A DNA stretch of 64,000 nt from Bacteriovorax sp. BAL6_X (GCF_000443995.1 NZ_AUMC01000010.1:682001-746000); one strand, 5' to 3'; counted from the first letter of the stretch, positions 45,045 through 51,546 are shown. Program-made: numbers and translations. Notes: generated from the letters alone by a model not told the origin.

Positions 45045-45905
45045 ATGAAGTATCTGTTGTGTTTTCTATTCATTTTTACAAGTTGTAGTTATCGTGACGT
45101 TATACTTAAGAAAGCACCGGATTTCTTAAGTGAAAAGATTGACGATTATCTCTCCCTTGATGACGAACAAGAAAAAGAGTTGCGTATTAAAGTTACAAAC
45201 GCCTTTTTTGAGCATCATAAGGAAGTCCTTAAGCTGAAGAAGCTCATTGAAAATTATCAGGTTGAAAAGGACTCTCTTAAAGAAGTCGTCGTTAGAGGAT
45301 ACCCTCCTTATGAACGTATTATGAAGAAGGTTAATAAAATATCAATTGAGGTTTTATCAAACCTTAGCTTTGAACAAAGACAGAAGCTTGTAAAGAAGCG
45401 TATTGATGATCGGAAGGATTATGATGAAAGCTATGAGAAAAGAGGTGTAAGGCGTCTTGAAAATATATTTGGGAAGCTTTCTGTTGGACAAGTAAAGCTA
45501 GTTGACGACTTTGCAAAGGATTATAAAAGTACTCGAGTAAAAGGTAATAGTTGGCATCATGACTTTCTTAAGGCCTTGAATTTAAAAGATCAAAAAGCAT
45601 ATCAAACCTATTTGAAAAAGAACTTTCAAGACATTGTTTCTTTAAATGAAGTCTTAAGGCAAAATAAGTCTTTTTTCAAATTCTTTGATAAATTCTCGAA
45701 GTCTTTGAGTAAGGAACAAATTGATCAGTTTAATAGAAAGAGAAAGGACTTGCTAAATTGGATTGACCTTTATCTAAAAATTTATCAAACACCTATAGTT
45801 CGTAGCGCACCCTGGCCACTAGAGAGTTATTCCCAAAGTTTAATTCCCCACCAACTTCAGCATCAAATACATCTGATGTTTCTTCCATATCGACCTTTAA
45901 CTTAA
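45045..45905 (+). CDS. DUF6279-family lipoprotein
   Basis: 286 residues. The lipobox IFTSCS places the lipid on Cys14. The helix-rich body starts with YDYLSLDDEQEKEL-like motif (KIDDYLSLDDEQEKEL) and FFEHHKEVLKL, the usual DUF6279 beginning. The function of the family is unknown. The reading frame runs 113 nt into the end of the convergent barrel gene at 45793-46602. The last 38 residues (from PIVRSAPWPLES on) are therefore encoded opposite the barrel's last strands and may be a late extension. Confidence 0.8.
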   Translation: MKYLLCFLFIFTSCSYRDVILKKAPDFLSEKIDDYLSLDDEQEKELRIKVTNAFFEHHKEVLKLKKLIENYQVEKDSLKEVVVRGYPPYERIMKKVNKISIEVLSNLSFEQRQKLVKKRIDDRKDYDESYEKRGVRRLENIFGKLSVGQVKLVDDFAKDYKSTRVKGNSWHHDFLKALNLKDQKAYQTYLKKNFQDIVSLNEVLRQNKSFFKFFDKFSKSLSKEQIDQFNRKRKDLLNWIDLYLKIYQTPIVRSAPWPLESYSQSLIPHQLQHQIHLMFLPYRPLT

Positions 45906-46602
45906 AAGCCTCAAGGCCAAGGCCGACAGAAAAACTCTTATAGAAAAGATAGTCGATAAATAAGTTTGTTGCGATAATGCTTCCTGTATAATCTCCAATT
46001 TGTATATAGAAGATATTGAATTCATTTGAAAGTGTCCATTTTGGTGTTATCTTAACTTCTGATTTAAGTTGGAATGTTGGTAGTGGCGCGATGAAGTCAC
46101 TTTGAGTCTTTGTTTTTCCCGTTTCTCCAATTGCAAACTCTAAAGGCATTATATAGAAACCAGCACCGGCCGATATATTGACTCTTTCATCTAGGAAGAA
46201 TGAGTAAGAGTAGGCCAGACGAATTATATCAAAGTTTAAGAGTGTATCAACAGAGGTACCAGCTCTTATAATGACTTCATTATTATCTTTGTCTACATAT
46301 TTTATATCTTGAGCGAGAACTCTTCGTGCATTACGATGTTGTCTATACCACCCCGTTGTAAGGCCATGTTTTTTGTTTTTAGTGAAGCGCCATTCATATT
46401 GTAAACGAAGAGATGCTTGGGTATCATCTAGACCTAAAGTATCTTCTGTACTTAAAATAAATGCACCTAAAGACTTCTTTCCAACTTGGATCGTTGTGTC
46501 CAGATAAGTGTAGCCAAGGCCTATTGAAAAACGATGAGTACTCCATTCTCCGTAGGAAAGTAGTGGGATGAATAAGAGTATAATTAATAAGGTTTTATAC
46601 AT
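45793..46602 (-). CDS. Outer-membrane beta-barrel protein with hairpin-locked start
   Basis: 269 residues with a signal peptide (ending LLSYGE). The mature part alternates polar and hydrophobic residues in strands and closes on SLVARVRYEL. No family recognised. The GGAG site before its ATG is the right arm of a 15-bp hairpin (see 46608-46645), so translation is probably regulated or depends on read-through from upstream. Its last 113 nt overlap the end of the convergent DUF6279 gene. Confidence 0.75.
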   Translation of the reverse strand: MYKTLLIILLFIPLLSYGEWSTHRFSIGLGYTYLDTTIQVGKKSLGAFILSTEDTLGLDDTQASLRLQYEWRFTKNKKHGLTTGWYRQHRNARRVLAQDIKYVDKDNNEVIIRAGTSVDTLLNFDIIRLAYSYSFFLDERVNISAGAGFYIMPLEFAIGETGKTKTQSDFIAPLPTFQLKSEVKITPKWTLSNEFNIFYIQIGDYTGSIIATNLFIDYLFYKSFSVGLGLEAFKLKVDMEETSDVFDAEVGGELNFGNNSLVARVRYEL

Positions 46603-46607
46603 GAAAA

Positions 46608-46645
46608 CTCCTAAACTTTATCATCTCAAGATAAAAGTTTAGGAG
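46608..46645 (-). promoter_or_regulatory. Hairpin that sequesters the ribosome-binding site of the barrel gene
   Basis: In plus-strand coordinates CTCCTAAACTTTATC (46608-46622) pairs with GATAAAAGTTTAGGAG (46630-46645) over 15 bp with one bulged A and a seven-base loop. In the mRNA of the barrel gene the downstream arm ends with the GGAG that should bind the ribosome, followed by TTTTC and ATG. It can act as terminator for the preceding gene (stem plus four T), as an RNA switch or thermometer, or both. Confidence 0.7.
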
Positions 46646-46655
46646 AAAGTTAATT

Positions 46656-48179
46656 TTAGTCTATTCTGTATAGGATTTCGCTAATTTGTTTTTGATCCTC
46701 TTCTTTCGTCGGAGCATTATTTAAAATTGTTTTTGCTTCTTGAATTTGCTCCGCTGTTGCATTAGGGTTCTGTAGCGTTTTTCGAGCATTATCCTCTCTT
46801 TCAAGTCTAAGAAGGCGCTCTTCTTTGAAGTCGATAATTTTCTTTCCTTCTGATAGGACTTCATCATATGAGATTCCGCCATTTGGCCTCTGAGAAGGTG
46901 TTTGTGGCAAGAAAATATAGTCCGTTCTTTTAAGCTTTAGTCTTTTACTTTGATAAACCATTGCCTTAGCAAAGGACTCAAATGCTTTTCTTGGAACATA
47001 GTGTTCTGTATCTCTTTTTAAGATATAGCGTAGTTGAGAGAGAGTCGAAGCATTAATTCCATCCTTTGGAGCTTTTGAACTCATTGGTATGTATGTTTGA
47101 TAGTCAAAGATATTGCTAATTGCAAACTCATGAGCTCCTTTTATACCAATTGTTCTCATCGTATCATTTGATGTTGTTGTACAATTGTAGAATGGAGTAA
47201 TCTCAAGTCCTTCTTCGGTGCGAACTCGATGAAGCTGTTCTTCAAAAATATCTCTAACTTTAAGCATATCTTCTTTAGAGCGAGCATAACCAATTAAAGT
47301 ATAAGTTGGCCTATAGTTAACTTGCCCTTGTATAAGGTGGCCGTAGTAGCTAATTAAGTCTGTATTGCTTGCTAGAACTTCTTTTTCTCCCTTAAAGTAA
47401 AAATTAAAAGTTTCTCCTTTAATGGAAAGATCATTTTGGACTTCTCCCATTCCAATAGCAAAGTGCCCAGCAGCAGCACCTGGCTCATCACCTTGGCGTC
47501 CACTTAGTGTTACGATAAAGACATGGTCTCCTGGAGTTGCCTCGTAATTATCACGATGTCTAATCGTTCCTCTAAAGGGTTCTGTCGATTGTGAGTTCTT
47601 ATTCTTTGGCATTTCTTTTAAGATGTACCTAAGTGGGTTTTTATTAAATTTCTCATTTGCTGGGTATGGATTTTTGCCAGCACTAAAAAGATCTGCTGGT
47701 ATGATAGCGTTGATGATAAAGGTTTCATCTTGCATATGTCCCTGTGTATGAACTTTCTTATTTTCAAAGTAGTGACGAGAGATATAGTCGAATTCGCTTC
47801 CATAGATTTTTTTTGAGCGGCCAAATTCAACAAGTTGGTCGTCGATATAGTAACGTCCATCCTTTGCTCTTGTGAGTGTTCCAATTCGGTCCTCAAGGTC
47901 GGCCACAACTCTAGGCATCTTGTTGATTTCGAGTTGATCTCCTGAGATTTCTCCGTCGAATTCAAAGACGTAGGTCGGTGAGTTTTTTAGAACCTTGTCC
48001 ATATACTTGTGATAGCGTTGATCAATTTTAAGAGATAAGTCTTGCTCTTGTCCATCTACCTTAACAATAGCTCTTGCCTGTCCATCTTTATCATAGATCT
48101 TTCCGCGAAAGCTCTCGGCCTTAACGTTAGCGCTTATAATTAGAGTGGCAAGAAGTCCCAAGCAGTAGACGTTTTTCAT
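46656..48179 (-). CDS. Secreted protein with a candidate His...Asn-Cys (permuted papain-like) active site
   Basis: 507 residues with a signal peptide (ending NVKAES). The N-terminal 120 residues are beta-rich. A central region has AAAGHFAIGMGEV (H239), GYARSKEDM and then TPFYNCTTTSN (N332, C333), in the His-before-Asn-Cys order seen in circularly permuted NlpC/P60-type enzymes, to which DUF4105 also belongs. The C-terminus is charged and helical. The resemblance is by motif only. With the DUF4105 protein upstream, this locus would carry two such enzymes. The start has an AGGAGAG site. Confidence 0.65.
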   Translation of the reverse strand: MKNVYCLGLLATLIISANVKAESFRGKIYDKDGQARAIVKVDGQEQDLSLKIDQRYHKYMDKVLKNSPTYVFEFDGEISGDQLEINKMPRVVADLEDRIGTLTRAKDGRYYIDDQLVEFGRSKKIYGSEFDYISRHYFENKKVHTQGHMQDETFIINAIIPADLFSAGKNPYPANEKFNKNPLRYILKEMPKNKNSQSTEPFRGTIRHRDNYEATPGDHVFIVTLSGRQGDEPGAAAGHFAIGMGEVQNDLSIKGETFNFYFKGEKEVLASNTDLISYYGHLIQGQVNYRPTYTLIGYARSKEDMLKVRDIFEEQLHRVRTEEGLEITPFYNCTTTSNDTMRTIGIKGAHEFAISNIFDYQTYIPMSSKAPKDGINASTLSQLRYILKRDTEHYVPRKAFESFAKAMVYQSKRLKLKRTDYIFLPQTPSQRPNGGISYDEVLSEGKKIIDFKEERLLRLEREDNARKTLQNPNATAEQIQEAKTILNNAPTKEEDQKQISEILYRID

Positions 48180-48284
48180 TTCTATCTCTCCTAATTTAGT
48201 TTTCTATATCTATTATTAAGAGCAATGATGGTGCCAATTAAACTATGTGATTTAAAGTCTTTAGAAGAGGGAAGTGTCTAGAAA

Positions 48285-48315
48285 TTAAACAATAGGCCCC
48301 TGAGCAGGGCCTATT
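48285..48315 (-). terminator. Intrinsic terminator of the DUF4105/paralogue operon
   Basis: AATAGGCCC (48291-48299) and GGGCCTATT (48307-48315) form a perfect 9-bp stem with a seven-base loop. On the minus strand a T-rich tract (TTGTTTAATTT) follows. It separates the three-gene operon upstream from the gene at 46656-48179. Confidence 0.75.
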
Positions 48316-48328
48316 ATTTAAACACGAA

Positions 48329-48916
48329 TTAAATTTGATTGTTGATATAGTTACGGATCTCAGACATTGACATCATATCATCCTCATCAACACAGAACTC
48401 ACCACGTGCATCAGCTACGCGGATTTCATCTGCAACTTGCTCTACGGAAACTTTATTATCTGTCGACCTTCTATCGTTTAGGTCTTCAGTAAATTCTGCA
48501 AGAGTTGTTCCTGTTACTTTTGGAGAAAGCTGCGCATCTTGGATTAGCTCAATTTGTCCTCTAAAATTTCTCTTGCTATCATCAATTACTCCTGTCGCTG
48601 CTAGTGTACTAGATGAGCCGTGGTAAACAGCATGAGTTGATGATGAAAGTCCATCTTCTATAATATCAAGAGCGATTAGATCAATAATGATATTGTCAGA
48701 GTCTTCAAGTAGAGCTGTTCCGGCAGCAATCGTTGTTGAAGCTAGCTCTATACCTCCATAAATTACTGCTACACCTGTTGTACTAAGTGCTGCACCTGTT
48801 GCGAGGGCCCTGTCCGAAGGTGCATTATTTCTTTCTTTGTAAAGTTCAAGACATGATGCTTGTGTTGAAGCAGCTAGTGAGCATAGTATCCCTAGCGTAA
48901 TTAATGATTTTTTCAT
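48329..48916 (-). CDS. Secreted protein A of a tandem paralogous pair
   Basis: 195 residues with a signal peptide (ending TQAS). The mature protein begins SCLELYKERNNAPSD and contains two hydrophobic glycine/alanine-rich segments (around 40-70), a VSVEQVADEIRVADARGEFCVD motif near the end, and an acidic helix tail. Two cysteines at the ends are shared with the neighbour, so a disulfide closing the domain is likely. No family recognised. GGAGAG precedes the start 11 nt behind the paralogue's stop. Confidence 0.75.
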   Translation of the reverse strand: MKKSLITLGILCSLAASTQASCLELYKERNNAPSDRALATGAALSTTGVAVIYGGIELASTTIAAGTALLEDSDNIIIDLIALDIIEDGLSSSTHAVYHGSSSTLAATGVIDDSKRNFRGQIELIQDAQLSPKVTGTTLAEFTEDLNDRRSTDNKVSVEQVADEIRVADARGEFCVDEDDMMSMSEIRNYINNQI

Positions 48917-48927
48917 TATTCTCTCCT

Positions 48928-49512
48928 TTATAGTTGTTCTTCGATATATTTTTGAATTTCATCTACAGTCATAAGATTTTCGCTATCAAGACAGAACTCC
49001 ATCCTTTCATTTGCGAGTTGAATTTCACCTGCCACTTGATTTACTGAAACTCTTTTATCTACTGGACGACTATCGTTGATCTTTCCTGTCATCTCGATGA
49101 TATCACCACTAATTATCTTAGGTGCCAACTCAGATGCTTGGATAAGCTTTAATTGTTCTCTATAGTCACGGTCTTTAATTATCCCCATTGCTGCAGATGT
49201 ACTAGAAGCACCGTAGTAAAGAGCGTCAACTGTTGATGTAGCACCACTCTTAATTGTTTTAGAGATAGTGAGCTCACTAAGTGCGCTATCTGGGTGAAGG
49301 ATTGCAACGGCACTTGTTGTTGATAGGCCTAGAGCAAATTCTCCTCCTGCCACAGTAACTCCTGCAATTGTTGAAGAGATACCGCTCATCGCTCCAATGT
49401 CTTGGTAGTCTGGTGCTCGATGATTTTCTTTATATACTTCTAGACATGATGCTTTAGCACTAACGCCCATTAGAATTGATACAAGACATGTTAATAGCAT
49501 AATCTTTTTCAT
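48928..49512 (-). CDS. Secreted protein B of a tandem paralogous pair
   Basis: 194 residues with a signal peptide (ending AKAS). It has the same layout as the protein just downstream: SCLEVYKENHRAPD at the start, glycine/alanine-rich hydrophobic segments (SGISSTIAGVTVAGG, LYYGASSTSAAMG), VSVNQVAGEIQLANERMEFCLD, and an acidic tail. Overall similarity is partial, so the duplication is not recent. It lies 15 nt behind the DUF4105 gene with AGGAG before its start. Confidence 0.75.
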   Translation of the reverse strand: MKKIMLLTCLVSILMGVSAKASCLEVYKENHRAPDYQDIGAMSGISSTIAGVTVAGGEFALGLSTTSAVAILHPDSALSELTISKTIKSGATSTVDALYYGASSTSAAMGIIKDRDYREQLKLIQASELAPKIISGDIIEMTGKINDSRPVDKRVSVNQVAGEIQLANERMEFCLDSENLMTVDEIQKYIEEQL

Positions 49513-49527
49513 GGTTTCTCCTATTTG

Positions 49528-51015
49528 CTACCATCTCGAATCGAGTAGGTAGAATCTCTTTTGATGATCTAATATTTTCTTATTAACTAATAAGCCTTTA
49601 TAAGGGCGAGTAATGACCTTTTTTCTTCTCTTTGTATTGTGGTCATGTCTCCACTTTGTGATGGCCTTAAGTGACTTCTCTTTATTGATTTCTCTAATCT
49701 TAGAAAAGGAATCTTTACCGTAAAAATCTTCAAGACCTTTAATGATATCTTGTTCGCATTTTGAATTATTACATATTTCATAAAGAGCATTCGGGGCCTT
49801 TGTAATTCCATGAAGTTCATCAAAGGAAACTGACTTTGTTTTTTGAATCTGAGATGCATAGTATTTAAAAGCATCAAGATCTAGAGTTGCAATTTCATTA
49901 AGTTTTCTAAACTCATTTAAGCTAAGTGCTTTTTGTAGCTTCTTAACTTGGTCTGTGTTGATATCGTATTGTAGATATGTTTCATCTTTTAGTTCGAGAA
50001 TACTTGCTGCTTTATCCTTAAGTTCTCTTAGAGAGTGGATCTTAATAATAGGGTATGGGTTTATAAGTGCTCTTTGGAGATAGTCTGGAAGTGCAAGAGG
50101 GATGCGCCCCTTAAATCCCATTTTTTTGTGATATGGATATCCAACTTGTTTTAAGAAGTTAACAAGTGCACCAGCACAATTATTAGAGAAGAATGTGTAA
50201 TCTCCTAACTCGCTACTTTCAGGTAACTCATATTTAACAGGAAAGACTTCTTCAACTGTTGTCTTAAAATTTGAAGTTAAATTATTTGGAACTGGAGTGA
50301 GTGCAAAAACCGATCCTGTTCCTGAACGCAGAGGTAGGATTCCGTAGTTACCTTCACCATACTTCTTTGTTGAAAATTGATTAAGTTCTTCTAGAGTATT
50401 TTGTAGGACTGACTTCTGCGTATCAACACGGTGTTTAGTTACTTCTTCCCACTGGTTTTTTAGTTCATTAATAATATTCTTTCTAATCTCTTCATTTGAA
50501 ATAATGATATAGCGATCAAGGTCACGTCTTTGTTTATTATTATATTCATCCATAAACATACGAAGACTTTTAACTTGAGGAAACACTGGATATCCACCAA
50601 ATATACCCTTGAAGTAATTGAGTTTTAAGGTGTCGACATTTGCAACAAAGCTTAAGACCACATCATCTGCTTGGGTTCCTACATTGTCTACAAAACGTAG
50701 CATAGTGTGGCCAAAGCCACTTTCAATATTTGACCAAGAACTTGAAGCGATCACAAGCTCCAGACCTATGATATTTCCATTCTCATAGCGCTCAAAAAGT
50801 CTTTTGAAAAAACGAGAATTCTCATTAAGAAGATCTTGGTAATTTGCACCCCAATTGATTTGGTTGGCCCTTTTCTCAAGTGCTTTTTGCTTTCTACGCT
50901 CTTCCATACGTTCACGCTGTCTTTTCTCAAAGTACGATTCGTCATGTCTGGCCTGAGCAGTCAGTGAGCTAAGAAGTGCCGTAAGCACTACTGAAAGTAG
51001 AGTAATCTTCTTCAT
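49528..51015 (-). CDS. DUF4105-like secreted enzyme candidate
   Basis: 495 residues with a signal peptide (ending TAQAR) and a strongly basic/charged stretch after it (residues 22-52). Central motifs are SGFGHTMLRF (H103) and FFSNNCAGALVNFL (N279, C280), in the order and spacing of DUF4105 proteins, thought to be permuted papain-like peptidases or acyltransferases of the periplasm. Between them lies YFKGIFGGYPVFP. The rest of the C-terminus is helical and lysine-rich. It is the first gene of the three-gene operon. Confidence 0.78.
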   Translation of the reverse strand: MKKITLLSVVLTALLSSLTAQARHDESYFEKRQRERMEERRKQKALEKRANQINWGANYQDLLNENSRFFKRLFERYENGNIIGLELVIASSSWSNIESGFGHTMLRFVDNVGTQADDVVLSFVANVDTLKLNYFKGIFGGYPVFPQVKSLRMFMDEYNNKQRRDLDRYIIISNEEIRKNIINELKNQWEEVTKHRVDTQKSVLQNTLEELNQFSTKKYGEGNYGILPLRSGTGSVFALTPVPNNLTSNFKTTVEEVFPVKYELPESSELGDYTFFSNNCAGALVNFLKQVGYPYHKKMGFKGRIPLALPDYLQRALINPYPIIKIHSLRELKDKAASILELKDETYLQYDINTDQVKKLQKALSLNEFRKLNEIATLDLDAFKYYASQIQKTKSVSFDELHGITKAPNALYEICNNSKCEQDIIKGLEDFYGKDSFSKIREINKEKSLKAITKWRHDHNTKRRKKVITRPYKGLLVNKKILDHQKRFYLLDSRW

Positions 51016-51111: not shown

Positions 51112-51546
51112 CTATATAATTGAATTTACTGTATCGAGGTCAAGTCCCTGTTCTTTAAATTGCTCTTTTAGATAGAGCTTCTTAACTTGGACGCTACCTT
51201 TTTCGATTAGGCCAAAGATCTCGCCCTTAAGTTCAACAAAGGCAAAGTCACTTGAATTTGCTTCTGAAATTGTGATCCTCTTAGGTTTACTGCCGCCAAA
51301 GGCCGCTCCCATAAGAGAAGAGGCGACGGAAAGAGAGTCCTGTTGATTGGAATCTAAAATAGCTTGTGCTTTAGCAATTTTGTCGAGTGTTACTTCTTTG
51401 CTTTGGATACCATGTTTTTTTAAAGTAAAGCCGTACGGACAGTGAAGACAGGCCGTCTTACAACAAGAGCCGCGGTTTTTAAGGAATTGAGAGGTTTTCA
51501 CCTCTCGTCCTTGTTCATTTGTATATGTAAGTTTTGCTTTATCCAT
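51112..51546 (-). CDS. DUF5522-containing protein
   Basis: 144 residues, cytoplasmic. The N-terminal part KNRGSCCKTACLHCPYGF is the Cys-rich motif of DUF5522, with four cysteines (CC, C, C) that could bind a metal. The remaining 90 residues form an unrecognised domain with EIFGLIEKGSVQVKKLYL. Its ATG overlaps the TAA stop of yebC by one base, so the two are coupled. Function unknown. Confidence 0.75.
   Translation of the reverse strand: MDKAKLTYTNEQGREVKTSQFLKNRGSCCKTACLHCPYGFTLKKHGIQSKEVTLDKIAKAQAILDSNQQDSLSVASSLMGAAFGGSKPKRITISEANSSDFAFVELKGEIFGLIEKGSVQVKKLYLKEQFKEQGLDLDTVNSII

Follow-up and report, generated by a model that had tools for sequence, protein, structure and literature searches.

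An exported DUF4105-family enzyme candidate and small two-cysteine proteins as a probable two-part module in Halobacteriovorax-type genomes

The lipoprotein N-acyltransferase of Bacteroides, Lnb, is reported to be a DUF4105 protein, and a sister clade of this family includes Tox-Act1, a phospholipase effector of Salmonella (PMC12994826). The immunity protein of Tox-Act1, Imm-Act1, contains two transmembrane helices (PMC12994826). In the permuted enzyme BcPPNE, residues His49, Glu64 and Cys154 occur in this order, the cysteine being last, and the YaeF/YiiX-like enzymes, including BcPPNE and YiiX, are known to accommodate a fatty acid in a hydrophobic pocket (PMC3142127). How bacterial predators alter the membranes of their prey, and their own, without harming themselves is poorly understood.

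The window analyzed here is a stretch of 64,000 nucleotides from the 3.23-Mb genome of Bacteriovorax sp. BAL6_X (NZ_AUMC01000010.1, positions 682001 to 746000). A first-pass annotation had described five minus-strand genes in a row encoding exported proteins, and the five ORFs (A, B1, B2, C, and D) were all recovered at their coordinates, each starting with a signal-peptide-like segment. The features of the locus are as follows.

49528..51015, minus strand: gene A, 495 aa, exported Lnb_N/DUF4105 enzyme candidate with invariant H103, D118, Y273, and N279-C280.
48928..49512, minus strand: gene B1, 194 aa, small exported partner with C23 and C174, a Gly/Ala/Ser-rich middle, and a confidently modeled helical C-terminal part.
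48329..48916, minus strand: gene B2, 195 aa, tandem paralogue of B1 with C22 and C175.
48285..48321, minus strand: hairpin of 16 pairs (-22.7 kcal/mol) directly 3' of B2, a terminator-like end of the A-B1-B2 unit.
46656..48179, minus strand: gene C, 507 aa, separate exported family with two OB-like parts followed by a permuted NlpC/P60-like part (H239, E256, N332-C333).
46608..46645, minus strand: hairpin (-16.9 kcal/mol, z -3.6) between C and D, its 3' arm including the likely ribosome-binding site of D.
45793..46602, minus strand: gene D, 269 aa, exported orphan with a weak match to outer membrane protein (OMP) beta-barrels.

Genes A and B1 are separated by 15 bases and B1 and B2 by 11 bases. 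The hairpin 3' of B2 was more stable than all shuffled versions (200/200; z -5.6) and is followed by a short T-rich stretch. Since it was not among the listings of a simple terminator scan, we refer to it as terminator-like rather than proven. The short gaps within A-B1-B2, the terminator-like hairpin after B2, and the second hairpin between C and D suggest that A-B1-B2 form one predicted transcription unit and that C and D stand apart.

The proposed identity of A as a DUF4105 protein with H103 and N279-C280 was borne out by a match to Pfam PF13387, Lnb_N (formerly DUF4105), with 67.5 bits for a cut-off of 22.2, and Lnb_N was likewise matched by 7/7 homologues of A. Residues H103, D110, D118, Y273, N279, and C280 are common to the seven homologues, which display 25 to 34% identity. 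The Pfam match spans residues 85 to 190 only, the assignment of C280 resting on the alignment of the homologues, and an insertion of ca. 90 residues lies between the cysteine and the Pfam-matched part. The named assemblies containing A homologues are those of Halobacteriovorax, Bacteriovoracaceae, and other Bdellovibrionota. The H103-D118-C280 series of A resembles H49-E64-C154 of BcPPNE, since an acidic residue follows the histidine by 15 positions in both proteins and the cysteine comes last, on a helix. Unlike the YaeF/YiiX-like enzymes, A and C had no match to any solved structure in sequence comparisons. Gene A is best read as encoding a permuted NlpC/P60 enzyme.

Lnb possesses a membrane part besides its periplasmic domain, as implied by the Pfam name. 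Protein A belongs to the same domain family and shares the permuted arrangement of conserved His and Cys; it differs from Lnb in lacking a membrane segment after the signal peptide (best 19-residue mean hydropathy of 0.83 after residue 22), in being accompanied by B genes, and in residing in a genome that has kept its own Lnt. The latter enzyme was detected in 128/129 genomes of the order, with an E value of 1.8e-65 in the genome of the window. The presence of Lnt indicates that A does not simply stand in for this enzyme, and a role as mere Lnt replacement was rejected. Lipid-directed thiol chemistry is the best inference for A, by analogy with Lnb and with the phospholipase Tox-Act1. If this is correct, the DUF4105/Lnb clade reaches beyond housekeeping lipoprotein acylation, because these genomes keep Lnt.

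Three additional Lnb_N proteins, without adjoining B genes, are encoded by the same genome (G000:C10 at 155314, 167823, and 933845, in loci L003, L002, and L001, respectively; frames of 511 to 704 residues). A-like proteins of ca. 240 residues found elsewhere (L181:650-1375, L160:4904-5473, and L135:1258-1980) have lipoprotein-type signal sequences and no adjoining B gene; they are a separate, putatively lipid-anchored DUF4105 branch. In L206, a weak A1 match was attributed to chance.

The first-pass annotation had noticed two paralogues of about 195 residues sharing end cysteines. The products of B1 and B2 are about 37 to 39% identical and each contain two cysteines, the first shortly after the signal peptide, the second close to the C terminus. 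A profile built on six B proteins identified further members across the order, and both cysteines are kept in 46/46 proteins of this enlarged set. The middle of the B proteins is rich in Gly, Ala, and Ser. The best 19-residue hydropathy mean is 1.4 for B1 and B2 of the window, a borderline value that leaves their membrane insertion uncertain. In several homologues, one or two segments reach the hydrophobicity required of a membrane span (mean >1.9), and values above 2.0, which are clearly membrane-like, occur in some. In the B model, confidence is limited to the helix at the N terminus and the helices at the C terminus, the middle being of low confidence. No match to the B family was found in Pfam, PHROGs, NCBIfam, or PADLOC, and its fold had no convincing match among PDB or viral structures (best Z of 3.4). 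As judged from sequence, the B proteins are a previously undescribed family of small exported proteins; a new fold is not proven, as only the ends are well modeled. The B proteins were also considered as lipoproteins. This was rejected since most homologues, with D, N, S, E, T, or a similar residue ahead of the first invariant cysteine, lack a proper lipobox.

Genes A and B adjoin each other in 18 genomes belonging to seven family-level groups (f1, f4, f6, f7, f11, f16, and f19), in either gene order. A comes first in the window and in G027, G090, G014, G019, and G264, and B comes first in G123, G118, G113, G114, G119, G148, a second G014 locus, G209, G307, G220, G255, G055, and G234 (the last pair being assigned by eye). 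The two genes overlap by 4 bases in G113, G114, G118, and G119, and the genes flanking the pair vary among lineages. Linkage in seven families, with varied neighbors and in both orders, is hard to explain by the inheritance of a single locus alone. B was present in all 21 genomes containing a strong A (>100 bits) among the 129 genomes of the order set, versus 29 of the 108 others (Fisher p of 9e-11, a value inflated by relatedness). In one of the 21 (G149), A lies at the end of a contig, away from B. The occurrence of B wherever there is a strong A, and often of B on its own, fits a partner that would be needed wherever A is made. Thus, the small proteins hold up as dedicated partners of A, which they adjoin or accompany across genomes. 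B would be a new partner for a known kind of enzyme.

Both genes are also kept, apart from each other, in ca. 10 genomes (G007, G092 to G095, G088, G089, G012, G020, and G024; for example, L050 with L154 and L054 with L067), indicating that co-transcription is not required. In the contexts of the unlinked genomes that were read, B follows nrdR and nusB. In one lineage group (L151 to L156, L162, and L163; e.g., L155:4392-6320), B lies downstream of nrdR, nusB, and an ORF of 130 residues without known function, a housekeeping context that is constant in this group, with A elsewhere. In L141, a weak B match (E value of 4e-4) located beside a DUF4105 paralogue of 600 residues was discounted, as the matching sequence does not have the cysteine pattern. 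The B proteins have diverged more than A, and tandem B copies have arisen by at least four independent duplications, each beside a single A. Sets of two or three tandem B genes next to one A are found at L198:4313-8020, L200:1390-3814, and L178:3030-5550, and these are separate duplications in the B tree.

We consider it fairly probable that A-B1-B2 form an exported two-part module in which B controls or supports a lipid-directed thiol enzyme, A, in the periplasm. As inferred from its family, A would form an acyl-enzyme at C280 with the participation of H103, D118 being the likely third residue, and its substrate would be a lipid or a lipoprotein at the periplasmic face of the membrane. B would be exported and its ends stapled by a C23-C174 disulfide around the Gly/Ala/Ser-rich, partly membrane-like middle. 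The genetic data suggest that B may bind and control A, restraint or self-protection being slightly favored over a function as membrane adaptor. Should A prove to be a lipid enzyme under the control of a dedicated partner, these two genes would provide a concrete module in Halobacteriovorax-type genomes, and the unnamed B family, recognized by no library, would gain its first role. In a broader form, which we advance tentatively and would not bet on, the pair would be a Bdellovibrionota-wide envelope weapon or remodeler, used on prey or on the bacterium's own membranes, combining a DUF4105-clade lipid enzyme with a disulfide-stapled, membrane-associated inhibitor family expanding by tandem duplication.

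The strongest competing explanation, which is possible and falls somewhat short of an even chance, is an effector/immunity pair: A would attack the membranes of prey or competitors after its release into them, and B would neutralize it in the envelope of the producer. The sister-clade enzyme Tox-Act1 is a periplasm-acting phospholipase toxin with a two-transmembrane-helix immunity protein (PMC12994826), and the small partner encoded next to A may similarly have hydrophobic helices. Several traits of B recall inhibitor or immunity proteins: its constant company with strong A, its occurrence alone, its recurrent duplication beside one A, like immunity-gene arrays, and a divergence faster than that of A. 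However, unlike Tox-Act1, A carries a signal peptide of the Sec type and lacks a recognized secretion-system context, and neither a delivery domain nor secretion genes were recognized within 5 to 8 kb around most pairs, where neighbors were read by eye. B differs from Imm-Act1 in its two invariant cysteines and its C-terminal helical part, and searches of Pfam, PHROGs, and PADLOC assign it to no family. Unlinked A and B are stably retained in several genera, which is in keeping with a physiological role of the enzyme, aided by an adaptor or a regulator, and the constant nrdR-nusB context of B would be unusual for a mobile toxin pair.

A split membrane enzyme, in which B would be a membrane-seated adaptor giving soluble A access to its substrate and would thereby supply the Lnb membrane part in trans, is a slightly less probable alternative. 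It would account for the lack of a membrane segment in mature A and for the span-capable segments of several B homologues, but the B copies of the window are borderline in hydrophobicity and 29 genomes of the order contain B without a strong A. That B could be a substrate of A, acylated or otherwise modified by it, is improbable: the pairing is constant and an invariant cysteine directly follows the predicted signal peptidase site, but the residues preceding it do not form a proper lipobox in most homologues and the second invariant cysteine, near the C terminus, suggests a disulfide instead.

Apart from the module formed by A and B, gene C encodes a second His and Asn-Cys protein. Residues H239 and N332-C333, noticed in the first-pass annotation, are identical in 11/11 homologues, E256 is kept too, and C333 is the sole cysteine of mature C. 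The family differs from that of A, and C matches no Pfam family at its cut-off. The predicted structure (mean pLDDT of 78.5) comprises two OB-like parts followed by the His/Cys core, in which a strand (219-226) follows G217-D218, H239 opens a strand (239-247), and C333 opens a helix (333-342). Residues 215 to 429 of C matched best TseH (PDB 6V98), a type VI effector of Vibrio cholerae, with 154 aligned of 183 residues and a Z of 6.8, which is middling (<8); this match ranked first of all and was the only one covering this core among the matches listed. The first rank was obtained after VIA re-ranking, the top matches of Foldseek itself being OB-fold and other low-confidence matches. In contrast to TseH, to which it is about 10% identical, C has two OB-like parts before the core and no recognized type VI context. 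A permuted papain-like (NlpC/P60) core in C is supported by this model, not proven. The earlier proposal of two permuted papain-like enzymes is therefore backed by predicted structure for C and by membership in the DUF4105 family for A. In a profile comparison of A and C (hhalign), the two Asn-Cys sites did align, but the result was not significant (E value of 0.055, probability of 1%), and we do not claim that the two proteins are sequence relatives. They probably share a catalytic fold.

Homologues of C in eight other genomes have unrelated surroundings and were never found near A, B, or D. Judging from these contexts, C is an independent enzyme candidate located next to A-B1-B2 by happenstance. 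Genome G012 contains three separate copies of the C family, all unlinked (L059, L065, and L066). For D, the first-pass assignment as a beta-barrel is weak, since the match to Pfam OMP_b-brl (E value of 5e-5) is below the cut-off of that family. A single marginal match to D was obtained among the 128 other genomes of the order, and D is, on this distribution, an orphan with no apparent relation to the A-B module. A single envelope-modifying or prey-directed system comprising all five genes, as first put forward from gene order and export in a single genome and compatible with a probably common catalytic fold of A and C, is highly improbable and was rejected, since hairpins follow both B2 and C, C is scattered, D is an orphan, and the profiles of A and C are not detectably related by sequence. 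The comparison of neighborhoods in relatives, which had been suggested as a check with scattered genes as the refuting outcome, found C and D scattered but not A with B.

A few features at the edges of the locus complete its description. Owing to the position of the hairpin at 46608-46645, D could be attenuated in translation or transcription. D also overlaps tail to tail, by ca. 113 bases (45793-45905), with a plus-strand gene at 45045-45905. At the other end, a DUF5522 protein is encoded just upstream of A (51112-51546), downstream of a YebC-like gene; the DUF5522 gene is not conserved beside A in relatives.
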